Origin: Halomonas citrativorans
GTDB taxonomy: Bacteria; Pseudomonadota; Gammaproteobacteria; Pseudomonadales; Halomonadaceae
NCBI RefSeq assembly: GCF_900163645.1
Contig: NZ_FUKM01000063.1
Location: forward strand, 1-64,000
Direction: 5' to 3'
DNA length: 64,000 bases
The position numbers and the translations under genes were made by a program. The notes under the pieces were generated by a model. It was not told where the DNA came from. It searched no databases and saw only the letters and a list, made by a program, of their open reading frames with translations. Shown piece by piece: positions 8,207 to 43,484 of this stretch. Numbering within the stretch: position 1 is the stretch's first letter; each line of letters opens with the position of its first letter.

Positions 8207-8767
8207 ATGGGTGCTTACACCAAGTTCAAGAACGCGTACTTTTCGTTTCTTGAAGCAATCGTGGTCATTCTGGTTATTGCTCTGGCCGGGGTCGTGACCA
8301 TTGGGTTTATCTCGCGGTATCTCGGTTCTCCTCTGAGCTGGTACGACGAGCTGGCCGCTGTGCTGCTGGCGTGGGTGACGTATTACGGGACGGCGCTGGC
8401 GGCCGCTAAAGGGGCGCATATTACGTGCCCCAGCGTATTGAATATGTGCCCGCCCTCGATCCGGGTGCCGGTCGCGTTACTAGCAGAGGCAATCACCATC
8501 GGCTTTTTCGTATTTCTCGGTCTGGCCAGCTACCAGGTAATGCTGATCCTTGAGGGCGTCAATATGGTCAGTCTGCCGTCCATCTCCATGCAGCTTACCC
8601 AGTCGGCTATCCCCGTGGCCTCCGTACTGTTCATTATCGCTGAGCTGCTGCGCCTGCCCGAGGTGCTGAAAAGCGCCCGCGGCAAAGGGTTTATCGATCA
8701 TGAACTGGAAGAAGCCGGTATCGATGCCGAAGAGGTTGAAGCTGTCAGCACTCATCAGCGAGGGTAG
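8207..8767 (+). CDS. dctQ: TRAP transporter small permease subunit (DctQ)
   Basis: This 186-residue small membrane subunit of a TRAP transporter has four predicted hydrophobic segments (about 13-36, 47-63, 85-107 and 129-148). The SPLSWYDELAAVLLAWVTYYG and AAKGAHITCPSV stretches are typical of DctQ. The C-terminal tail is acidic (ELEEAGIDAEEVEAV). A good GGAGG ribosome site precedes the ATG. It is 67 nt downstream of dctP and 9 nt upstream of dctM, so all three subunits of a complete transporter are present and in order. Confidence 0.93.
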   Translation: MGAYTKFKNAYFSFLEAIVVILVIALAGVVTIGFISRYLGSPLSWYDELAAVLLAWVTYYGTALAAAKGAHITCPSVLNMCPPSIRVPVALLAEAITIGFFVFLGLASYQVMLILEGVNMVSLPSISMQLTQSAIPVASVLFIIAELLRLPEVLKSARGKGFIDHELEEAGIDAEEVEAVSTHQRG

Positions 8768-8776
8768 GTAACCAGC

Positions 8777-10060
8777 ATGACCATACTTTATATATTTCTC
8801 GCATTGATCGTGCTGATTCTGATCAATGTGCCGGTGGCGGTTGCCTTGGCGTTAGTCGGCACCATTGCCACCTTTATGACTTACGGCAGCATGGCGATGC
8901 CGACGGTCGGCATGACCATGTTTGAGGGGGCCACGAATTTCCCCCTGATAGCCATTCCACTGTTCATTCTCGCCGGCGCGATCATGAATGCCTCCAGTAT
9001 CTCCCGGCGTTTGATCGATTTGGCCATGGCCATGGTCGGGTTTATCAAGGGCGGGCTTTCCATGGTGACCATCGGGGCCTCGGTGTTTTTCGCTGAAATA
9101 TCCGGCTCATCAGTGGCAGGCGTATCGGCGATCGGCAGTATCCTGATTCCGGCCATGCGTAAAAAAGGCTACTCGAAAGAGTTTGCCGCTTCCATCTCTT
9201 CATCTGCGGCCAGCTTGGCAATCATTTTGCCGCCTTCGATTCCCATGATTCTGTACGCCGTTATGTCCGGCGAGTCCGTGGTACAGATGTTTGTGGCAGG
9301 TATTTTTCCGGGCCTATTGGGCGCCATGGGGTTAGCCGCCATGTGCTACTACCTAGCCCGAAAGTATAACTTTCCGTCTGAGGGGCGTTTTCAGGTCTCC
9401 AATCTGTGGAAAGCCTTCAAGGAAGCGATCTGGGCGCTGCTGATCCCGGTGATTATCCTGGGCGGTATCTTTGGCGGTTTTGTGACGGCAACTGAAGGCG
9501 CGGCTCTTGCCGTCTGCGTGGCAATCTTCATCAGTGCGGTGGTGTATCGCGAGTTTACGATCAAGAATTTTATCGACTCGTGCAAGAGCGCTGGTGTGCA
9601 AACGGCGGTGGTGATGCTGCTGGTCGCGGCTTCTGCGGTGGTGGGCAGCTATCTCACCGAGACCCGCGTGCCCCAGGAAATTGCCATGCAGATCAGTGAC
9701 CTGACGGATAACAAATACGTCATTCTGGCCCTTTTGAATGTCATCTTCTTGATTTTGGGGATCTTCCTGCACTCGGCAGCGGCGATCATTCTGGTCGTGC
9801 CTATCGTGCTGCCGTTGGTTCTGGAAGTGGGCATCGATCCGCTGCACTTTGGTTTGATTGTCACGCTGAACTTGGCGATCGGCCAGCAAACACCACCCGT
9901 GGCAAGTGTACTGATAGCTTCCTGCTCGATTGCCAAATCGGATATCTGGGCGACGTCCAAAACCAACCTGTGGTTTATCGCCGTGCTGTTCACGATTTTG
10001 ATGATCAACACCTACATCCCCGCGTTTGCACTGGCGCTGGTTAACTTTATCTACGGCTAA
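8777..10060 (+). CDS. dctM: TRAP transporter large permease subunit (DctM)
   Basis: This 427-residue large permease carries the Na+-coupled transport channel of the TRAP system. It is strongly hydrophobic throughout, consistent with about 12 membrane segments. Family signatures include FAEISGSSVAGVSAIGSILIP, LAIILPPSIPMILYAVMSGES and the conserved GLIVTLNLAIGQQTPPV loop. It partners DctP and DctQ encoded directly upstream. It is followed after 11 nt by the crotonase-fold gene, so import and breakdown of one substrate are probably coupled in a single transcript. Length is normal for DctM and nothing is disrupted. Confidence 0.95.
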   Translation: MTILYIFLALIVLILINVPVAVALALVGTIATFMTYGSMAMPTVGMTMFEGATNFPLIAIPLFILAGAIMNASSISRRLIDLAMAMVGFIKGGLSMVTIGASVFFAEISGSSVAGVSAIGSILIPAMRKKGYSKEFAASISSSAASLAIILPPSIPMILYAVMSGESVVQMFVAGIFPGLLGAMGLAAMCYYLARKYNFPSEGRFQVSNLWKAFKEAIWALLIPVIILGGIFGGFVTATEGAALAVCVAIFISAVVYREFTIKNFIDSCKSAGVQTAVVMLLVAASAVVGSYLTETRVPQEIAMQISDLTDNKYVILALLNVIFLILGIFLHSAAAIILVVPIVLPLVLEVGIDPLHFGLIVTLNLAIGQQTPPVASVLIASCSIAKSDIWATSKTNLWFIAVLFTILMINTYIPAFALALVNFIYG

Positions 10061-10071
10061 GGGAGTCATTT

Positions 10072-10878
10072 ATGAAAGATTCACATGATTCACCGCTAAC
10101 CGACAGCGTGCAGTTTGAAATTTGTGACGGTGTTGCCTGGGTCGGTTTTAACCGCCCGCAAAGCCGCAATGCGATGACCTGGGAGATGTATAACGCCCTG
10201 GAGCACTACTGCGATGTTCTGGTGGATGATGACGAGGTTCACGCCGTGGTGCTTCACGGGGTAGGCGGCGAGGCATTCGTGGCAGGTACGGATATCACCC
10301 AGTTTGCCAACTTCTCGGAGCCTGACGATGCCATCGGCTATGAACGCCGGATCGATCAGGTGGTGGGAAAACTTGAGCGCTTTCCCAAGCCGACCCTGGC
10401 GCTGATTGAAGGCGCCTGTGTGGGCGGCGGCGCAGCACTCGCTCTGGTATGTGACTTCCGCTACGCCACCTCCACTATGAAATTTGGGGTACCCATCGCC
10501 AAGACGCTGGGCAATACGCTGTCGATCAGTAACGTATCGCGCCTGATCGACATGGTCGGCGTGGCCCGCACCAAGGAAGTGTTAATGATGGCGCGGCTAT
10601 TTAGCGCTGAAGAGGCACAAGCCGCCGGGCTTGTGAACCGCATCTTTGATGCCGACACCATTTACGCCGACGTCGCCAAGCTCGCAGCAGACTTTGCCAA
10701 GCGGGCGCCGCTTACCCTGCAGGCCAGCAAAGCATTGATCAATCGAGCGCTTGAGCAACGCAGACTTGAAGCGGATGCCAGCGATGACTGGGTAACAACC
10801 TGCTATATGAGCCGCGACTTTGCCGCTGCCGTGGATAAGTTCGTCAATAAAACGTCGTTTGAGTGGACGGGCCGCTAA
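10072..10878 (+). CDS. Crotonase-superfamily protein lacking both hydratase glutamates
   Basis: This 268-residue enoyl-CoA hydratase/isomerase-fold protein is intact over its length. The first oxyanion-hole segment (EAFVAGTDITQF, 67-78) and the second (EGACVGGGAALALVCDF, 113-129) are present, so CoA-thioester binding is likely. By my alignment to mitochondrial hydratase, the two catalytic glutamates (rat Glu144 and Glu164) are replaced by Ala122 and Ile142 (FGVPIAKTLGN instead of FGQPEI-type). A classical hydratase is therefore unlikely; a lyase, decarboxylase, isomerase or thioesterase is possible. It lies between dctM and a CoA-transferase gene (19-nt gap), which would supply its acyl-CoA. 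CaiD of carnitine operons is a distant analogue in context only. Confidence 0.85.
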   Translation: MKDSHDSPLTDSVQFEICDGVAWVGFNRPQSRNAMTWEMYNALEHYCDVLVDDDEVHAVVLHGVGGEAFVAGTDITQFANFSEPDDAIGYERRIDQVVGKLERFPKPTLALIEGACVGGGAALALVCDFRYATSTMKFGVPIAKTLGNTLSISNVSRLIDMVGVARTKEVLMMARLFSAEEAQAAGLVNRIFDADTIYADVAKLAADFAKRAPLTLQASKALINRALEQRRLEADASDDWVTTCYMSRDFAAAVDKFVNKTSFEWTGR

Positions 10879-10897
10879 ACACATAGGAGGAGGGCGT

Positions 10898-12085
10898 ATG
10901 CTTCCCTTACAAAATATAAAAGTGCTGGACGTCTCCCAAATCATGGCAGGGCCCTACTGCACCATGGTGCTGGCTGATATGGGCGCTGAAGTCATCAAGG
11001 TTGAAAAGCTTAATGGCGGCGATGATAGCCGCCAGATGGGACCTTATGTGAATGGGGAATCCACCTGCTTTTCGCAGATTAACCGCAATAAGAAGAGCAT
11101 TTCACTCAATCTCAAGGATGAACGGGCAAGGCAGATATTCTATCGCTTGGCGAGTGATGCCGATGTCATCGTCGAGAACTACCGGCCAGGCGTTACTAAA
11201 TCGCTGGCAATCGATTACGACACCATCAAAGCCATCAATCCCGGTATCGTTTACTGCTCAATTTCAGGTTATGGCCAGACCGGTCCCTACAGTCATAAAG
11301 GCGGGTTCGACCTAGTGGCCCAAGGCATGACTGGGTTGATGTCGATGACCGGCGAGCAGGGCAGACGTCCGCTGAAAACCGGCATTGCCGTTTACGATAT
11401 CGGGGCGGGCATCACTGCGGTTTACTCAATACTCGCGGCGCATATTCATAAGATGACCACCGGCGAAGGCCAGCATATTGATATTGCGATTACCGAATGC
11501 GGCCTGCCCTGGTTTACCTGGGAAGCAGCGGCGTACTTTGCCGAAGGCACTGTGCCGGGCCCCACGGGGTGGCGCCATCGGGTATCGGCACCTTATCAGG
11601 CGGTCAAAGCACGCGACGGGTATTTGATGTTGGGCTGCGCCAACCAGCGCACCTGGGAGCGGTTTTGTCGCGACGTATTAAAGCGTGAAGCCTTGATGGA
11701 AGACTCGCGCTTTCTCACTAACCACGACCGTGGCCAGCATGTTGATGAGCTTGAAGCGCTGCTGGAAGAACTAATGGCCGAGGCAGGCGTGGATGAGTGG
11801 TTAACGCTCTGCGATAGCGCGGGCGTGCCTGCCGGGCCTATCAATAATTTCGCTGACGCCATGGCCGATGAGCACTATCTGGCTCGCGGCATGGTGGAAG
11901 AGATGGAGCACCCGGTAATGGGAAAAATGAAAACCATCGGCTTTCCCAGCAAGTTCTCCCTGACGCCTTCGACAATACGTAGCGCGGCGCCGCTGTTTGC
12001 GCAGCATACCGATGAAGTGCTTGAAGGATTGGGTTTTGCTAATGACGAACTAAGCCACTTGCGGGCTGAAGGCTGCATCAAATAG
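10898..12085 (+). CDS. Class III (CaiB/BaiF) CoA-transferase
   Basis: This 395-residue family III CoA-transferase is of the formyl-CoA transferase/CaiB/BaiF type and activates a carboxylic acid by CoA exchange. Visible landmarks are the N-terminal VLDVSQIMAGPYCTMVLADMG (9-29), VENYRPGV (92-99), SISGYGQTGPY (121-131) and the expected catalytic Asp in AVYDIGAG (Asp167). The ATG at 10898 is preceded by AGGAGGAGGG, a very strong ribosome site. In-frame sequence upstream overlaps the crotonase gene and is not family-like. It is the last gene of the TRAP operon before a promoter region. The substrate is probably the imported carboxylate (inference). Confidence 0.92.
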   Translation: MLPLQNIKVLDVSQIMAGPYCTMVLADMGAEVIKVEKLNGGDDSRQMGPYVNGESTCFSQINRNKKSISLNLKDERARQIFYRLASDADVIVENYRPGVTKSLAIDYDTIKAINPGIVYCSISGYGQTGPYSHKGGFDLVAQGMTGLMSMTGEQGRRPLKTGIAVYDIGAGITAVYSILAAHIHKMTTGEGQHIDIAITECGLPWFTWEAAAYFAEGTVPGPTGWRHRVSAPYQAVKARDGYLMLGCANQRTWERFCRDVLKREALMEDSRFLTNHDRGQHVDELEALLEELMAEAGVDEWLTLCDSAGVPAGPINNFADAMADEHYLARGMVEEMEHPVMGKMKTIGFPSKFSLTPSTIRSAAPLFAQHTDEVLEGLGFANDELSHLRAEGCIK

Positions 12086-12100
12086 GTTTTTTTAAAGCCA

Positions 12101-12118
12101 ATAATTGAATTCATTATC
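12101..12118. promoter_or_regulatory. TTGAATTCAT palindrome, copy 3
   Basis: ATAATTGAATTCATTAT sits about 55 bp upstream of the aminotransferase gene, directly after the CoA-transferase stop. It matches the copies near 6290 and 7021. It suggests a second promoter within the cluster under the same control. Confidence 0.45.
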
Positions 12119-12163
12119 CATTTTTCAGGTTTTAACCGGCAACAATAACAAGAGGTAACCACC

Positions 12164-13381
12164 ATGCTAAAACTCGACTTTCACCCATCCGGCCGTCATT
12201 TCCTGCAGATCCCTGGCCCCTCACCGGTGCCAGACCGCATATTGCGTGCGATGAGCCTGCCCACCATTGACCACCGTGGGCCTGAATTTGGCGCCCTGGG
12301 GTTGGAACTACTGGCCAAGGTAAAAAAAGTCTTCAAAACAGAGCACCCGGTGATTATTTATCCGGCCTCGGGTACCGGCGCCTGGGAGGCGGCACTCGCT
12401 AATACGATGTCGCCGGGCGATCAGGTGCTGATGTTTGAGACCGGCCACTTTGCCACGCTTTGGCAGAAAATGGCGCTGCGTCTTGATCTGAAGCCTGAGT
12501 TTATCGGCCTGCCGGGTTATGAGGGCTGGCGCCAGGGCGTTCAGGCCGACATGATCCAAGAACGGCTCAACAACGACCCCGAACACGCCATTAAAGCGGT
12601 GTGTGTGGTGCATAACGAAACCTCAACCGGGGTGACCAGCGATATCGCAGCGGTGCGTAAGGCCATTGATGCCACCGGACACCCGGCGCTGTTAATCGTG
12701 GACACCATTTCCGGCCTTGCCAGCGCCGACTATCGCCACGATGAGTGGGGTGTGGATGTCACCGTGTCCGGTTCACAAAAGGGGTTGATGCTGCCGCCGG
12801 GGATTAGCTTTAACGCACTTTCTCCCAAGGCGATCGAGGTTAGCCGGGAGGCCAAGCTTCCCAGAAGCTTCTGGGCGTGGGATGAGATTCTGGAAGCCAA
12901 CCAGAAGGGGTATTGGCCATATACGCCCAGCACTAATCTGCTGTATGGCCTCAATGAAGCGCTGGATATGCTGCTGGATGAAGGTATCGACCACGTGCTG
13001 GCGCGTCATCAGCGCTGGGCCGCTGGCGTGCGTACGGCGGTCGAGGCCTGGGGGCTGGAAGTGCAGTGTCAGGACCCCGCGATTTACTCCCCTGTGCTCA
13101 CGGGTGTGGTGATGCCTGAGGGGGTGGATGCCGATGAGATTCGCAAGATTATCTACGAGCGCTTTGATCTATCGCTAGGCATGGGGCTCGGCAAGGCCAA
13201 GGGCAAGATGTTCCGCATCGGCCACTTGGGAGATTGTAACGACCTTACCCTGATTGCCACGCTGGGCGGCTGTGAGGCCGGGATGAAGCTTGCAGGCGTC
13301 AACTTGCAGGGCAGTGGCGTCACCGCCGCTCTGGACTACTTTGCCAACAATCCGCTTAGCACAGGCACTTCAGAGCGTTAA
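12164..13381 (+). CDS. Class V PLP aminotransferase (serine/aspartate-glyoxylate type)
   Basis: This 405-residue PLP enzyme belongs to the alanine/serine-glyoxylate aminotransferase family. Landmarks are the N-terminal LQIPGPSPVPDRILRAM (14-30) and DHRGPEF (36-42), the cofactor Asp180 in IVDTISG and the Schiff-base Lys206 in VSGSQKGLMLPPG. Relatives include serine-glyoxylate aminotransferase of methylotrophs, BhcA (aspartate-glyoxylate) and ureidoglycine-glyoxylate aminotransferase; I cannot decide among them from sequence alone. An AGAGGTAACC ribosome site precedes the ATG. It is followed after 16 nt by a FAD/Fe-S dehydrogenase. Glycolate oxidase and ureide genes in this window would both supply glyoxylate. 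Confidence 0.88.
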   Translation: MLKLDFHPSGRHFLQIPGPSPVPDRILRAMSLPTIDHRGPEFGALGLELLAKVKKVFKTEHPVIIYPASGTGAWEAALANTMSPGDQVLMFETGHFATLWQKMALRLDLKPEFIGLPGYEGWRQGVQADMIQERLNNDPEHAIKAVCVVHNETSTGVTSDIAAVRKAIDATGHPALLIVDTISGLASADYRHDEWGVDVTVSGSQKGLMLPPGISFNALSPKAIEVSREAKLPRSFWAWDEILEANQKGYWPYTPSTNLLYGLNEALDMLLDEGIDHVLARHQRWAAGVRTAVEAWGLEVQCQDPAIYSPVLTGVVMPEGVDADEIRKIIYERFDLSLGMGLGKAKGKMFRIGHLGDCNDLTLIATLGGCEAGMKLAGVNLQGSGVTAALDYFANNPLSTGTSER

Positions 13382-13397
13382 TGATGGGGAGAGTCAC

Positions 13398-16300
13398 ATG
13401 ACATCACTGACGAAACAGCCCCAATTTCGCGATGCCAGAATCAAACCCGTGGGGGAGCTGGCGGCGCGCTTAAGCCGGGAAATGGCAGGCGACGTGTTGT
13501 TTGATCAGGAAACGCGGGGGCGCTATGCCACCGATGCCTCGATCTATCAGATCACGCCGGTGGGGGTGGTGATCCCCCGCCACCAGGAGGACCTCAAGAT
13601 CGCGCTGGATATCGCCCGTGATGCCCGTGTGCCGGTGCTGGCGCGCGGTGCGGGCACCAGCCAGTGCGGCCAGACGGTCGGCGAGGCGCTGGTCATCGAC
13701 ACCACGCGCTGGCTCAACCAGGTCATCGAATTCGATGCTGAAGCGCAGACGGTGGTGGTAGAGCCGGGCATGGTGCTTGATCACCTCAATGCCTGGTTAA
13801 AGCCTTACGGGCTCTGGTATCCGGTGGATGTTTCGACCAGCGCCCAATGCACCATTGGCGGCATGGCAGGCAATAATTCCTGCGGGTCGCGCTCGATCTA
13901 CTACGGCAATATGGTGCATAACGTAGTGGGCATCGATGCCATACTCGCCGATGGCTTTGAAGCACGGTTTAGCTTTGTGGATAGCCTTGCCGAAGGCTCG
14001 CGGGAGCAGCAGCTCGCCCGACAGGTCAAGGCGATTGCCGAGCGGGTCAGCCCAGAGATTCGGGAGCATTTTCCTAAAGTGCTGCGCCGTGTCGGGGGCT
14101 ATAACCTGGATCTGTTCGACTGCCAGAACTCCATACCTTATGACCCCGAGGGCCGGGCGAATTTAGCCCACCTGCTGATTGGCTCGGAAGGCACACTTGG
14201 GGTAAGCAAGCGCATCAAGCTGCGGCTTTCTCCGCTACCCAGCCAAAAGGTGCTGGGCGTGGTGAATTTTCCAACGTTCTATCAGGCGATGGATTTAACC
14301 CAGCATATCGTCAAGCTCGGCCCCATGGCGGTCGAGCTGGTCGATAGAACCATGATCGAGCTTGCCCTTGAAAACCCGGCGTTTCGCCCGGTGATTGAAA
14401 AAGCCCTGATCGGCAAGCCTGAAGCCATTTTGCTGGTGGAGTTTGCAGGTCAAGATCACGCCGAGCAGCTGGCGGCGCTGAGTGAGCTTAACGAGCTGAT
14501 GGGCGATTTGGGTCTGCCGGGCAGCGTGGTGAATATGCCTGAAGCAAAAGAGCAGAAAGCGCTTTGGGATGTCCGCAAGGCGGGGCTCAATATCATGATG
14601 AGTATGAAAGGCGACGGCAAGCCTGTCTCTTTTATTGAAGACTGCGCCGTGCCCCTTGAACATCTTGCCGAATACACCACTAAACTCACTGATGTGTTCA
14701 ATCGCTACGGCACGGAAGGTACGTGGTATGCGCATGCTGGCGTGGGTACGCTGCATGTGCGGCCCATTCTGGACATGCGCCGTGATGGCGCTGAAAAGAT
14801 GCGTGAAATTGCCGAACTGGCTTCCTCGCTGGTGCGTGAATATAAAGGCGCTTACTCCGGTGAGCACGGTGACGGCATTTGCCGCGGCGAGTGGGTCGCC
14901 TGGCAGTTTGGCAATACGCTAAACAACGCCTTTCGTGAGATCAAGCAACTGTTTGACCCGGATAATCTGTTTAACCCCGGCAAGATCGTCGACACCCCTA
15001 AAATGGATGACGAACGCTATTTCCGGTTCCCCAAATCGTATCAGACGATTCCACTAACCCCGGTGTTTGACTGGTCTGCCTGGAACGTAAAGCGCGACCC
15101 GTTAACCGGCGAGCAGACGCCGCCCGGCACCGCAGGCGATCCTACCCACGGGCTCGCCATGGCGGTCGAGATGTGCAACAACAACGGCCACTGCCGCAAG
15201 TTCGATGCGGGTACCATGTGCCCAAGCTTTCGAGCGACCAAGGATGAGCAGCATTTAACTCGGGGGCGAGCCAATACGCTGCGTCTGGTACTCTCGGGCC
15301 AGCTTGGCGATGAGGGGCTGGCCAGCGACGCTGTTAAAGAAGCGCTCGACCTGTGCGTTTCCTGCAAAGGCTGTAAACGTGAATGCCCGACCGGCGTGGA
15401 TATGGCCAAGTTCAAGATTGAAGCGCGTGCCGCGCGCACCAAAGCAAAAGGGCTGTCACTGCGTGACCGCATGGTCGGTGAAATGCCACGCTATGCGCCG
15501 TGGGCGAGCCGCTTTTCTGGGGTGATGAACTATGTGGAGCGCACGCCGTTTCTAGCCAATCGAGTCAAAAAGGCGCTCAATCTTGCCCCGGAACGGGCAC
15601 TGCCTGCCTTCAAGGGCAACTTCCTGGCAGGCAACCATAACGCGGGCAGTAGCGAAGTCGCTGAGCGTGAGGTGCTGCTGTTTGTCGATACCTTCAATAA
15701 TTATATGGAAGGAGACAACGCCAAAGCTGCTAAGCGCGTGCTGGAAGCCGCCGAGTATCGGGTGCACCTCAACGTCACCAAAGGCCAGCGGCCGCTGTGC
15801 TGCGGGCGTACTTACCTATCATCCGGCCAGTTCGAGAAAGCCAAGGCAGAAGCCAGGCGAACGCTGGATCACTTGATGCCGTTTGTGGATCGCGGCGTGG
15901 CGGTCGTGGGGCTTGAGCCATCGTGCCTTTTAAGCATGCGCGATGAATTTCTGCAGTATGGTTTTGGTGAACAAGCCCGAGCACTCGCCGAATCGGCGTA
16001 TCTATTCGAAGAGTTTCTGGTGACTGCCCATGAGGCCGGACAGCTGCCGCTGGCACTTAAACATTCAGGCTACAAGCAGGCCCTGCTTCATGGCCACTGT
16101 CATCAAAAAGCTTTTGATGCGCTACGTCCGGTCGAGCAGGTACTACGCTGGGTGCCGGGGCTTGAGGTTAAAACCATCGAATCTTCCTGCTGCGGTATGG
16201 CGGGTAGCTTTGGCTATGAAGCCGAGCATTACGAAGCCTCGCTTAAAATGGCTGAGCTTTCGCTTCTGCCGGCTATCCGCAAGGCTGAAGACGATGCTGT

Positions 16301-39084: not shown

Positions 39085-39597
39085 GTGAGAACATTATTAC
39101 TGGGGTGGGTTCTGCTGGCGCTAGGGTCTCCCTTGGCTGGATTTGCCGATGTGTCCACCCCCTTGGAAGCACCAGACGGTGCCGTTTTGCTGGAAGTAAG
39201 GGGCAATATTGCAAATGTGAATACCGAGGTGGGTGCCGACTTTGATATTGACATGTTAGAGGGTCTGCCACAGCACGCGTTTGAAACGAGCACGCCTTGG
39301 ACAAGTGGCGTCAGCCAATATTCAGGCCCGTTGTTACGTGATGTGCTTGAGCTCGTAGGTGCCAAGAGTGATGCGATAGAGGTAGCGGCCCTTAACGGCT
39401 ATGTGGCTGAAATACCGATCAAGGATTTTTATGATTACGACGTCATTCTGGCGCTTAAACGAAATAACCAGCTCATCCCTATTCGTGAGTTCGGGCCTCT
39501 TTGGGTGCTTTATCCGTTTGATCAGGACGAGACGCTGTTAAGTGAAAGAGTGCGCTTTAGAGCTGTTTGGCAGGTTAGGCGTATAGATGTTCTTTAA
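39085..39597 (+). CDS. Cysteine-free sulfite-oxidase-fold periplasmic protein
   Basis: This 170-residue exported protein has a signal peptide (1-21, cleavage after GFA). The rest resembles the oxidoreductase molybdopterin-binding (SUOX) fold, seen in [37 protein letters not shown] and [14 protein letters not shown]. The whole chain contains no cysteine, so the molybdenum-ligating Cys of real enzymes is missing and catalysis is unlikely. It starts with GTG after GAGGA and overlaps the following histidine kinase gene by 11 nt. Such coupling suggests a periplasmic sensor partner for that kinase (inference). Confidence 0.8.
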
Positions 39598-41869
39598 CCG
39601 AGCCAAGGTGAGCTCGCCCCGCCTGCTGCGTTACCCTCGTCGCCTTAAACTGGTGGCCATTATTACCGTGTTGCTGTTTGCATCAGCATTAGTAGTCGCT
39701 GCTCTGGCCTCTTGGCGGCAGGACAATCTCACACAGAGTTTGCGCGAAGATACCTCCTGGGTAGCCTATAAACTCGATCGTGACGCAGTACAGCTGCTTA
39801 ATCACTTGCTTTCAGAATCCCGTGCAGAGATGACCCTGGCGGCTCAAAACGAGCTGAATATGCGCTTTGAGCTTTTGTATAGCCGCCTTATGTTGCTTCA
39901 AGAAGGGGAAGTTAACTCGCTGATTACTGACATTGAAGGGGCGGGGCAGTTGCTAACGCAAATAGGCCAGCAGATGGAACCGCTGGACCTCTTGTTTGCA
40001 CCTCATGAAGTGCTGGATCAACTGCCCGTTGTTTTAATTGAAGCAGAGCTTGAAGCACTCACCCAGCTAACCGAGCGGTTTGTCATCACCATCAACGGTT
40101 ACTTGGCGGAGTCTGCCACTGAAGAACGTCGTGTATTAAGCACGCTTTATAAATTATTAATGACGCTGCTGGTCGGTATGAGCTTGGCCGTGCTGTTGGT
40201 CATTGCGTTCCTGATTCGAGAAATGCGTGAAAGTGCGACAGCCCGGCGCCGACAGGAGCAACTAAGCCAGCAATTGGAAGTGACCGCTGAGCAGGCGCAG
40301 GCTGCTAATCATGCCAAGTCCGACTTCCTGGCCATGGTGAGCCATGAGATCCGTACTCCGCTTAATGGCGTGATCGGCATGAGCGAGCTGCTAAGTGAGC
40401 CAGCAAGCTCGGCCCAGGTAGAAGATTACGCACGCACGATTCATGAGAGCGCCAACCAGCTGTTAGCCATGATCAATGAGATTCTCGATTTCTCCAAAAT
40501 CGAAGCAGGCCATTTAACACTTGAAGCGTCACCTACTGAATTAAGGCCCTTGGTTGATAGCGTGGTAGCGCTATTTGAACCGCGTTCGAGCGCCAAAGGG
40601 GTTGCATTAAGCATGCATATCGACCCGCTGGTACCGCGTTGGGTGATGGCTGATGCAGGTCGTCTGCGGCAGATTTTACTTAATCTTGTGGCGAACGCGA
40701 CCAAGTTCACCGATCACGGAGCAATCACTGTTCGGGTCTCTTCAACGGTGGAGCACCTGCTACTGGAAGTTAGCGACACTGGGTGTGGGCTTAGTGAAGA
40801 GCAACAAACGACGTTATTCGAACCTTTTCAGCAAGCGGGTGCATCGGTCGCTCGCCGCTACGGGGGAACTGGCCTTGGGCTTGCTATCTGTAAGCGCTTA
40901 AGTGAAGCCATGAACGGGCAGTTGGGTGTGCAGAGTAGGCTGGGGCAGGGAAGTACATTTTGGTGCAAACTGCCGCTGGTTAAAGCGATGCCCGTCGAGG
41001 CAGCGCTTCCTAATGAGCAGACGAGAAACTTTGCGGGTACAGCACTGCTGTTAGTGGAGGATAACGCCATTAATCGCAAAGTCGCGATCGGGCTTTTGTC
41101 ACGCTTGGGGTGCGAGGTCGTGTGTGCCGAGAATGGGCAGGATGCGCTAGACATGGCGACGTCCTTGCCGGTGCACTTAATCTTTATGGATATACAGCTG
41201 CCCGATATGGATGGCCTGATGGTGACGCAGCGCCTGCGCGAGCAAGGAGGCTGGTTGGCGAACGTGCCCATTGTTGCCATGACGGCGGGAGGCAATGACC
41301 GTCAGCGCTGCCTGGCCGCCGGAATGAACGACTACATTACCAAGCCGCTTTCGCTTCGGGCACTGGGTGACGTGCTTGCTCTGCATTTATCGCCGACAGC
41401 GCCAGCCCGTAAAACAACGCTACCTGCGCAGCTGCAGGGCGATACGTTTGAGCACAATGTTTTTGAATACAATGTTTTTGAGCACAATGTACTGAATGCT
41501 GACACGCTCAGCATGCTTCAGGAGAGTCTGGGCGATGAGCACTTAATAAACCTGGTTGCTTTGTATCATCAGCAGATCAGCGACTACGTGTCCCAACTGA
41601 GCGCGTGCCTTGCCACGCCGGAAGCGCCTTTTAGCGAACAGGCTCGGCAGCAGGTAGCCAGGTTGGCACATCAGCTTCGTGGGGAGTCGCTGAGTATGGG
41701 CGCAGAGGCGTTGGCGGCGAAGGCCAAAAGCCTTGAAGTGTTAGCTCGTGAGGAGGGAAATACAAAAAGCCAGTTTGATGAATCACTTGGCGTCGTGCGC
41801 CACACCGCTGCACGAACCCACAGCGCACTCAAACGTTGGCGGCAGAGACAATCTTCTACCAAGGGATAA
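39587..41869 (+). CDS. Hybrid sensor histidine kinase with REC and Hpt domains
   Basis: This 760-residue membrane sensor kinase has TM1 at about 21-43, a helical periplasmic domain (about 44-188) and TM2 at about 189-210. A short coil leads to HisKA with the phospho-acceptor His253 ([12 protein letters not shown]). HATPase_c has [15 protein letters not shown] and GTGLGLAI boxes. A REC domain has Asp535 (FMDIQLPD), and a C-terminal Hpt domain has His695 (LAHQLRGES). The chain can therefore run a full His-Asp-His relay, but no separate response regulator is adjacent. A 3x5-residue repeat links REC and Hpt. It overlaps the SUOX-fold gene by 11 nt, hence their products probably act together. Confidence 0.93.
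41447..41491 (+). repeat. 15-bp in-frame triple repeat in kinase linker
   Basis: Three tandem 15-bp units (41447-41461, 41462-41476 and 41477-41491) encode [10 protein letters not shown] and FEHNV between the REC and Hpt domains. In-frame units can vary in number without breaking the gene. Confidence 0.85.
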
Positions 41870-41963
41870 GGGCTAACCCCGGCATCAAGCTATATCGTCA
41901 TTGGCAATAATAAACAATACTGTTAGGGCACGTTTAATAATCATAATCCTCAGGAGCCTTCTC

Positions 41964-43484
41964 ATGATTTATGCCAATCCGGGTGATAATGGGTCCGTCG
42001 TCTCGTTTGAAAAACGCTATGGTAATTACATCGGTGGTGAGTTTGTTCCGCCCGTTAATGGGCAGTATTTCGATAATATTAGCCCTGTGAATGGTCAGGT
42101 CTTCTGCGAAATTCCGCGCTCTACTGCTGACGATATCGATAAAGCCCTCGATGCAGCCCATAAGGCTGCACCTGCTTGGGGGAAAACCTCTGCCGCTGAG
42201 CGCAGCAATACCCTGCTAAAAATTGCTGATCGCATTGAACAGAACATTGAAAAGCTGGCCGTGGCAGAAACCTGGGATAACGGCAAGGCCGTGCGTGAAA
42301 CCCTGAATGCTGATATTCCTTTGGCGGTTGATCACTTCCGCTACTTTGCGGGCTGCATTCGGGCGCAGGAAGGCTCCGCTGCTGATATTGACGCCAACAC
42401 AGTGTCTTATCATTTTCATGAGCCGCTGGGCGTGGTGGGTCAGATCATCCCCTGGAACTTCCCGATTTTAATGGCTGTTTGGAAGCTGGCCCCTGCGCTT
42501 GCCGCCGGTAACTGCGTAGTACTTAAACCTGCCGAACAAACGCCAGCATCTGTGCTGGTGCTGATGGGATTGATTGGAGATTTGCTGCCGCCGGGTGTGG
42601 TCAACATCGTCAATGGCTTCGGTGCAGAAGCCGGCCAGGCACTGGCCAGTAGCAAACGTATCGCCAAAATCGCCTTCACCGGTTCCACGCCGGTGGGGTC
42701 ACATATTCTTAAGTGCGCCGCTGAAAACATTATTCCTTCCACCGTGGAGCTGGGCGGTAAATCACCCAATATCTACTTTGCCGATATCATGAACGCCGAG
42801 CCGACGTTTATCGATAAAGCGGTAGAGGGTCTAGTGCTGGCCTTCTTTAACCAGGGCGAAGTGTGTACCTGCCCCTCACGTGCGCTGATTCAAGAGAGCA
42901 TGTACGAAGAATTCATGGTCAAGGTGCTTGAGCGCACCAAGACTATAAAGCGTGGCAACCCCTTGGATACCGACGTGCAAGTAGGCGCTCAAGCCTCTCA
43001 AGAGCAGTACGACAAGATCATGTCGTACATGGATATCGCCCGTGAGGAAGGCGCTGAATTTCTGACCGGTGGAGGTAAAGAAAGCTTCGACCCAAGCTAC
43101 GACAAGGGTTACTACATCCAACCGACGCTGCTGAAAGGTGACAACAAGATGCGCGTCTTCCAGGAGGAGATCTTTGGCCCGGTGGTGGCGGTCACCACCT
43201 TTAAGGATGAAGAAGAAGCGCTGGCGATTGCCAACGACACCGAGTTTGGCTTGGGTGCAGGTGTATGGAGCCGGGATATTAACGTTGCGTTTCGCATGGG
43301 GCGGGGCATTCAGGCTGGTCGCGTATGGACCAACTGCTACCACCAATATCCTGCCCATGCGGCATTTGGTGGCTACAAGAAGTCCGGCGTTGGCCGTGAA
43401 ACCCACAAGGTAGCGCTTGAGCACTATCAGCAAACCAAGAACCTACTGGTCAGCTACGACATCAATCCGCTCGGTTTTTTCTAA
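41964..43484 (+). CDS. exaC: NAD-dependent aldehyde dehydrogenase (ExaC/AldB type)
   Basis: This 506-residue aldehyde dehydrogenase has the catalytic Glu262 (VELGGKSPN) and nucleophile Cys301 in [11 protein letters not shown]; a second cysteine lies at 303. The NAD-binding [11 protein letters not shown] stretch and the [19 protein letters not shown] motif are intact. The whole sequence resembles the acetaldehyde dehydrogenases ExaC/AldB/AcoD of about 506 residues. ATG 41964 follows AGGAG; the sequence upstream is non-conserved. It is monocistronic, with a GC-rich hairpin downstream. It would oxidise acetaldehyde or related aldehydes to acids; betaine aldehyde is less likely because BetB sequences differ. 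Confidence 0.88.

Follow-up and report, generated by a model that had tools for sequence, protein, structure and literature searches.

A 64,000-nucleotide stretch of Halomonas citrativorans DNA (contig NZ_FUKM01000063.1, positions 1 to 64,000; hereafter the window) carries two overlapping genes that very probably encode a PruR-DTB system, in which an exported pterin-binding protein of the SUOX fold would dock on the phosphorelay kinase encoded next to it. The system is already known, its arrangement having been published as PruR-DTB in a review by Rucker, Augusta, Fuqua and Allen (PMC13259868), and the pair is ordinary for its family. According to passages of that review, PruR proteins lack the molybdenum-ligand cysteine, possess secretion signals and bind small pterins. 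In Agrobacterium tumefaciens, PruR acts with DcpA as a SUOX-fold periplasmic sensing partner and controls DcpA via the periplasmic domain of the latter; passages of the same source describe PruR beside TorS/BaeS-like kinases by gene linkage and note that DTB proteins vary in their domains (PMC13259868).

The pruR-type gene (39085–39597, forward strand) starts with GTG and encodes 170 residues, none of which is a cysteine. The product matched the Pfam family Oxidored_molyb (PF00174) with 30.5 bits against a cut-off of 24 (E 3.2e-7), confirming the first-pass annotation, which had described a SUOX-fold protein lacking any cysteine. The hydrophobic N-terminus was read by eye as a secretion signal, and residues 1–21 (39085–39147) are a probable signal peptide. 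An AlphaFold2 model of the protein had an overall pLDDT of 92.7, with a mean of about 60 for residues 1–20 and values of 85–98 thereafter. In a phmmer search of solved structures (PDB), the best match was 7kos/7kou (E 1.4e-34), followed by 7rkb, 7kp2 and 7kom; the names of these entries refer to a pterin-binding protein or an Oxidored_molyb domain protein, and the remaining four matches were unrelated (E of at least 1). Foldseek titles identify the structures as PruR of Agrobacterium fabrum, Klebsiella pneumoniae (with neopterin), Vibrio cholerae and V. vulnificus. The model aligned to 7rkb and 7kos with an rmsd of 0.8 Å, a target-normalised TM score of 0.95–0.97 and 41–42% identity; 7rkb is neopterin-bound PruR, and it is the mature domain of the model that superposes on it. 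A 46-row family profile matched 7kos at E 4.6e-58 and true sulfite oxidases at 1.9e-5 or weaker. Judged by these sequence comparisons, the match to PruR is not a chance one, because of the phmmer E-value and because the pairing with a kinase recurs in relatives.

Asn102, Tyr104 and Trp160 are named as pterin-site residues of A. tumefaciens PruR, for which tetrahydromonapterin is the preferred pterin (passages of PMC13259868). All three are retained in the window protein, as N104 and Y106 of the ALNGY motif (N104-G105-Y106, 39394–39402, forward strand) and as W162 (39568–39570, forward strand). Among 46 aligned homologues, the first column holds Asn in 42 rows and Asp in 4, the second Tyr in 38 and Phe in 8, and the Trp is invariant. 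By homology, it is well supported that the window protein is a PruR-type periplasmic pterin-binding protein. The earlier proposal, in which a SUOX fold was taken over to serve the kinase as its sensing partner in the periplasm and the ligand is perhaps a pterin, thus gains support from the homology to PruR, the pterin-site residues and the close superposition.

A cysteine occurs somewhere in 16 of the 46 rows and is confined to the first 18 residues in 13 of those 16, and no row has one in columns 68–72 of the alignment. In a MAFFT alignment with MsrP, the molybdenum-ligand cysteine column falls at P62 of the window PruR, where the alignment is weak; this placement was not used, and our argument is the absence of cysteine only. 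Passages of the review state that a tryptophan replaces this cysteine in PruR (PMC13259868). The other PF00174 protein of the window genome (G000:C28) has RCVEAW and is MsrP-like by sequence reading. In a plasmid collection, 642 records encode a PruR relative at E 1e-5, and 145 of them cover at least 80% of the query. Klebsiella accounts for 265 of these records, and 398 have been typed as conjugative; the records listed include at least one (H12) of chromosome size. Many of the relatives on plasmid records are named 'molybdopterin-dependent oxidoreductase'.

The pruR-type gene shares 11 nucleotides (39587–39597, forward strand) with the gene of a DTB-type hybrid histidine kinase of 760 residues (39587–41869, forward strand), as stated in the first-pass annotation. 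Its call of a hybrid phosphorelay kinase also stood, since HisKA (40313–40510), HATPase_c (40652–40978), the receiver domain (41048–41368) and Hpt (41567–41761) each scored above the Pfam cut-off. Alignment placed the phospho-acceptors at H253 (SHEIRTP) in HisKA and D535 (DIQLPD) in the receiver, and H695 (AHQLRG) in Hpt. The best NCBIfam model of the kinase is TorS, with 432.9 bits, which is under the equivalog cut-off of 676.5. In TorT-TorS, a periplasmic binding protein is combined with a hybrid HisKA-REC-Hpt kinase. Both systems have a periplasmic protein reporting to a hybrid kinase, but the window kinase does not reach the TorS cut-off, and the periplasmic protein of TorT-TorS differs from PruR in fold and ligand.

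Between two membrane-spanning segments, the kinase has a DcpA-type helical periplasmic domain (about residues 43–187, 39713–40147, forward strand; approximate limits set by eye). The predicted structure of residues 1–240 was all-helical (pLDDT 91.8) and may be read as a helical bundle flanked by two membrane-spanning helices. Foldseek gave no match for these residues at E ≤0.001. VIA-align returned mixed helical bundles (best Z 14.0) including the NarQ and QseE sensor modules, a likeness that may just reflect a common arrangement among such bundles, and a profile search of solved structures with the N-terminal region gave weak matches alone (E of at least 0.005). Structure prediction of the pair had been suggested earlier; the two proteins were modelled separately, and the exported one superposed on PruR while the kinase N-terminal region came out helical. 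Comparison by hhalign of the periplasmic domains of kinase-type partners (10 Halomonadaceae rows) and GGDEF-type partners (7 rows) gave a probability of 97.4% (E 1.1e-11), and on these profiles the two kinds of PruR partner have homologous periplasmic domains. The Trp of the published motif, WX7E, is retained in 144 of 146 PruR partner proteins; the window kinase has W58-x7-D66, and D66 in place of Glu is a conservative change.

These features suggest how the pair would work. The small protein would be exported, and the pocket of its reduced SUOX domain would accommodate a small pterin in place of the molybdenum cofactor, as in its homologues. Pterin-bound PruR would then dock on the helical periplasmic domain of the kinase, as shown for PruR and DcpA, and docking would alter kinase activity. 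Given the intact domains, phosphate would pass from H253 to D535 and H695 and on to a response regulator encoded elsewhere. By analogy with the loci of relatives, the output would most likely be a NarL-type regulator or a c-di-GMP (cyclic di-GMP) enzyme, possibly acting on exaC, the next gene downstream.

The pair fits the published PruR-DTB class by sequence; its motif has Asp where the published one has Glu, and its kinase ends in an Hpt. Shared with that class are a PruR, here putatively exported, without the molybdenum-ligand cysteine, a two-gene unit with pruR directly upstream of the gene of a DcpA-domain kinase, the Trp of WX7E and a TorS-like kinase body, whereas WX7D, the C-terminal Hpt and the exaC neighbour set the window pair apart. 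The Ruegeria pomeroyi DTB, for example, is drawn as PAS-HisKA-HATPase-Rec (a figure in PMC13259868), compared with HisKA-HATPase-REC-Hpt in the window. The periplasmic protein family is the same as in A. tumefaciens PruR-DcpA, and the receptor domains are homologous in a comparison made with GGDEF-type partners from other genomes and not with DcpA itself. The output differs, DcpA being a GGDEF-EAL c-di-GMP enzyme and the window protein a phosphorelay kinase.

The constancy of the pairing was assessed in the 80 best named Halomonadaceae loci, 60 phylum loci and 20 further Halomonadaceae regions. The PruR query matched 119 of 151 family genomes, and PruR relatives were found in 80 of the 82 genomes of the genus; a profile search found PruR in 67 of 398 phylum genomes, 7 of the 67 being from the window's own family. 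The 80 named loci contain 82 PruR open reading frames (ORFs), and 78 of them lie directly upstream of a kinase with the DcpA-type periplasmic domain; a receiver and an Hpt were both detected in 76 of these kinases. The other four ORFs are followed by a domain protein without a kinase call (one), a second PruR (two) or nothing labelled (one, L065). Among the 60 phylum PruR ORFs, 31 have kinases with the domain as partners and 18 have GGDEF or GGDEF-EAL proteins with the domain. The further Halomonadaceae regions contain 23 PruR ORFs, with 18 domain kinases, 2 second PruR and 3 unlabelled partners. All ORFs that matched the periplasmic profile (184/184) lie in loci with PruR, and 146 of them were called directly downstream of PruR; of the other 38, 28 are in shorter loci outside this count and 10 were missed by the neighbour rule, the misses lying in L065, L212, L213, L248, L253, L255, L269 and L272. 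The loci were chosen for holding PruR, and the only others scanned were 60 from the window's genome (L113–L172). With loci selected by PruR and a profile iterated on these very ORFs, the data indicate linkage and not absence elsewhere. The sets overlap, as the kinases of L267, L270 and L273 are identical to those of the named loci L105, L100 and L106, and some named loci end early at contig ends (e.g. L098 and L101), so that the absence of downstream genes there is uninformative.

Two departures from the usual arrangement were observed. At L065 (8412–9739), from Halomonas sulfidaeris ATCC BAA-803, the kinase that accompanies PruR is split into several frames, which may be real decay or a sequencing error. 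Modicisalibacter luteus and M. xianhensis (L100 and L106, with the same kinases as L270 and L273) have tandem pruR genes before one kinase.

Several observations weigh against a PruR-DTB system in the window. The Glu of WX7E is Asp in the window kinase, and the same holds for 61 of the 78 kinase partners scored at the named loci; the other 17 have the complete motif. Of the phylum-set kinase partners 10 of 31 lack the complete motif, which is present in the other 21 and in 16 of 18 GGDEF partners; in the further Halomonadaceae set it is complete in 10 of 18 kinase partners. The 60 phylum PruR ORFs include 7 with unlabelled partners, some of which are misses of the neighbour rule, as well as 3 kinases and 1 receiver protein without a domain call. 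Iteration of the periplasmic-domain profile on the same ORF set makes its E-values flattering, and the hhalign comparison is the independent test. For the window pair itself, pterin binding, interaction and signalling are drawn from homologues. No receiver-only gene was present in the fetched stretch at 46 of 130 PruR-kinase pairs, and none was immediately adjacent at any of the 78 named family pairs. Lastly, among 30 of 32 matches to short-chain dehydrogenases/reductases that were inspected, just one (G000:C32:239005-239661, L139) has the pteridine-reductase motif TGX3RXG (TGGATRLG); it scored under the NCBIfam cut-offs and is thus a candidate source of reduced pterin.

The first-pass annotation was right that no response-regulator gene adjoins the pair in the window, where the nearest other receiver-domain gene, at about 56.2–57.0 kb on the minus strand, has a kinase of its own beside it. 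Unlike the window, many sister species have a NarL-type regulator a few genes downstream of the pair. A receiver-only gene occurs somewhere in the fetched stretch at 84 of the 130 pairs. In tallies of adjacent genes, where one pair can count twice, 15 of the 34 phylum pairs have none; the rest adjoin NarL-type regulators (8 divergent, 2 downstream), receiver-HD-GYP proteins (2) and genes that are of another kind or were left unscanned (10). Of the 18 further Halomonadaceae pairs, 10 have none, and the rest adjoin 5 receiver proteins of the L263 type (receiver-EAL by Pfam for L263, the sole one scanned), 4 OmpR-type regulators in divergent orientation and 3 NarL-type regulators. The neighbours at L243 and L244 were labelled from the same L263 seed. 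On an A. tumefaciens plasmid, PruR and the kinase are preceded by a divergent LuxR-type regulator and followed by an HD phosphohydrolase. In a second type of PruR-DTB locus in Halomonadaceae (L263, L264, L265 and L274), an OmpR-type regulator lies upstream in divergent orientation, and a receiver protein (receiver-EAL in L263) is encoded downstream on the opposite strand; these neighbours suggest a c-di-GMP output for that type.

A search for the phosphorelay target in the window genome, as had been proposed, yielded no regulator that could be assigned with confidence. The regulator found near the pair in sister species lacks a close match in this genome. Its best match was C24:102644 (39% identical), for which ErdR is the top-scoring model (269 bits, cut-off 390) and which faces a hybrid kinase of its own. 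C34:19547 is a NarL-family protein with no kinase within the 3.5 kb fetched; it is the best own-genome match (38%) of one divergent regulator that adjoins a PruR-DTB pair outside the family (L224), and the regulators of L218 and L236 matched C24:102644 best, not C34:19547. Further receiver genes without a kinase in the fetched stretch are L149 (scoring as GacA/UvrY), L153 (scoring as NarL), L158 and L159. None of these is proposed with confidence as the target. The genome has three Hpt matches, in this kinase, in a 701-aa frame and in a 938-aa hybrid-kinase frame, and our guess is that the 701-aa frame is CheA-like and the 938-aa frame BarA-like.

Upstream of the pair, the window encodes a TRAP-type transporter (NMT1-like receptor and DctM permease with DUF3394) and a Usp protein. 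Downstream are the acetaldehyde dehydrogenase gene exaC (41964–43484, forward strand; NF050026, 967.7 bits against a cut-off of 900; likely start ATG at 41964, by eye) and a BCCT transporter. A strong exaC relative was found within the fetched stretch at 52 of the 80 named loci. In many sister species, three extra genes lie between the kinase and exaC, encoding the nitric-oxide/haem sensor NosP, an NahK/ErcS-type kinase and a NarL/LuxR-type regulator. An example is L039 of H. ventosae (8463–15606), in which NosP matched NF041558 with 567.6 bits (cut-off 450) and the NahK/ErcS-type hybrid kinase of about 475 aa matched NF041832 with 493.8 bits (cut-off 400). This kinase terminates in a receiver, and Pfam detected no Hpt in it; the regulator is on the opposite strand, and its closest NCBIfam model is ErdR (164 bits against 390). 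Within the genus, NosP scored above the cut-off in 57 of 82 genomes, or 58 with one split match, and any match at E 0.001 was found in 60. In 56 of the 58, NosP immediately follows the kinase gene, starting 2.25–2.41 kb past the point where the PruR match ends, and in 2 it is located elsewhere. The NosP gene, the NahK-type kinase gene and the regulator gene occur together or not at all across the 80 named loci: 43 have all three with exaC, 9 have exaC only and 28 have none within the fetched stretch, a few stretches being short. Including L279 there are 44 NosP loci, and 43 were laid out, L065 being excluded for its fragmented DTB kinase. In 42 of the 43 layouts, the DTB kinase, NosP, NahK-type kinase and exaC genes are on the same strand and the regulator gene is on the opposite strand; L279 agrees, with its exaC cut by the end of the stretch.

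No NosP match was found in the window genome, and the module genes are missing at 41870–41963, between the kinase gene and exaC. In a tree of 97 kinases, the window falls in a clade of 8 rows (SH-aLRT 99) with exaC and without NosP, and this clade is nested in one of 22 rows (SH-aLRT 97) whose other 14 rows all have NosP. The simplest reading of this quick tree, built without bootstrap, seems to be that the module was deleted in the window's clade and exaC was kept. Overall, the tree needs at least 9 state changes, so the module would have been gained or lost several times.

The NosP-NahK-regulator-exaC module is itself already known: passages of PMC12997753 place nosP-nahK in the exa/ped cluster of Pseudomonas, which serves alcohol oxidation, together with exaC and a LuxR-type regulator. 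The same genes stand behind the pair in many sister species, whereas the window genome keeps exaC alone. No PruR-type gene is named in those passages, and 'molybdo' occurs 0 times in the main text. The only literature link found between PruR and NosP is in passages of PMC13259868, where NosP serves as an analogy alone. Hybrid kinases of the NahK type usually hand phosphate to a separate Hpt protein (passages of PMC12997753). In a more speculative reading, PruR-DTB and NosP-NahK of Halomonadaceae would form one composite sensory unit, in which the DTB kinase supplies the Hpt that the NahK-type kinase lacks. Acetaldehyde oxidation (exaC) would then be under a NarL-type regulator whose state depends on both periplasmic pterin and cytoplasmic nitric oxide (NO) or haem. 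The window's clade would have deleted the NO arm and the regulator, leaving pterin as the only input beside exaC. We consider this composite unit rather unlikely. Apparently, attachment of the module behind PruR-DTB is unreported in the literature searched, a scope outside which lies Greenwich et al. 2024 (PNAS), reportedly a PruR paper cited by the review.

It is also conceivable that the pair is a decayed remnant, with a kinase that signals to nothing after loss of its regulator along with NosP-NahK. The window's clade does lack the NosP-NahK-regulator genes, and the closest counterpart of the sister species' regulator sits beside another kinase. However, neither ORF is disrupted, the phosphorelay residues are all present, the other seven rows of the module-less clade keep the pair and the kinase frame, and the kinase has one of just three Hpt matches in the genome; decay is very unlikely. 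The chance is likewise very small that the protein is a sensing partner whose ligand in the window's lineage is not a pterin, such as an oxyanion or a small aromatic, or that it is a ligand-free regulator. The ligand is assigned by homology, the reduced-pterin source is a candidate, and residue 105 beside the site is G in the window protein and D in 30 of 46 rows, but the pterin-site Asn, Tyr and Trp and the fit to neopterin-bound PruR speak for a pterin. A small molybdoenzyme that lost or replaced its cysteine ligand, still binds the molybdenum cofactor as a redox enzyme and adjoins the kinase by operon chance would agree with the Pfam family and the naming of plasmid relatives, but it was rejected as almost certainly wrong, since the protein has no cysteine whatever, in contrast to SUOX and MsrP enzymes with their molybdenum ligand, its closest structures and the family profile favour pterin-binding PruR, the phylum-wide pairing with one kind of periplasmic domain is not predicted by operon chance, and the PruR pocket is truncated and probably unable to accommodate the cofactor (passages of PMC13259868).

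Our study indicates that the PruR-DTB pair of H. citrativorans contributes a member from a halophile to a class of pterin-sensing kinases that is published but has been little studied. The neighbourhood conserved in many sister species gives this class a concrete and testable output in alcohol and aldehyde oxidation, to which sensing of NO or haem may be coupled. As a natural deletion, the window's clade would separate the pterin input from the NO/haem input, and the linkage to NosP in the relatives is the part worth following.

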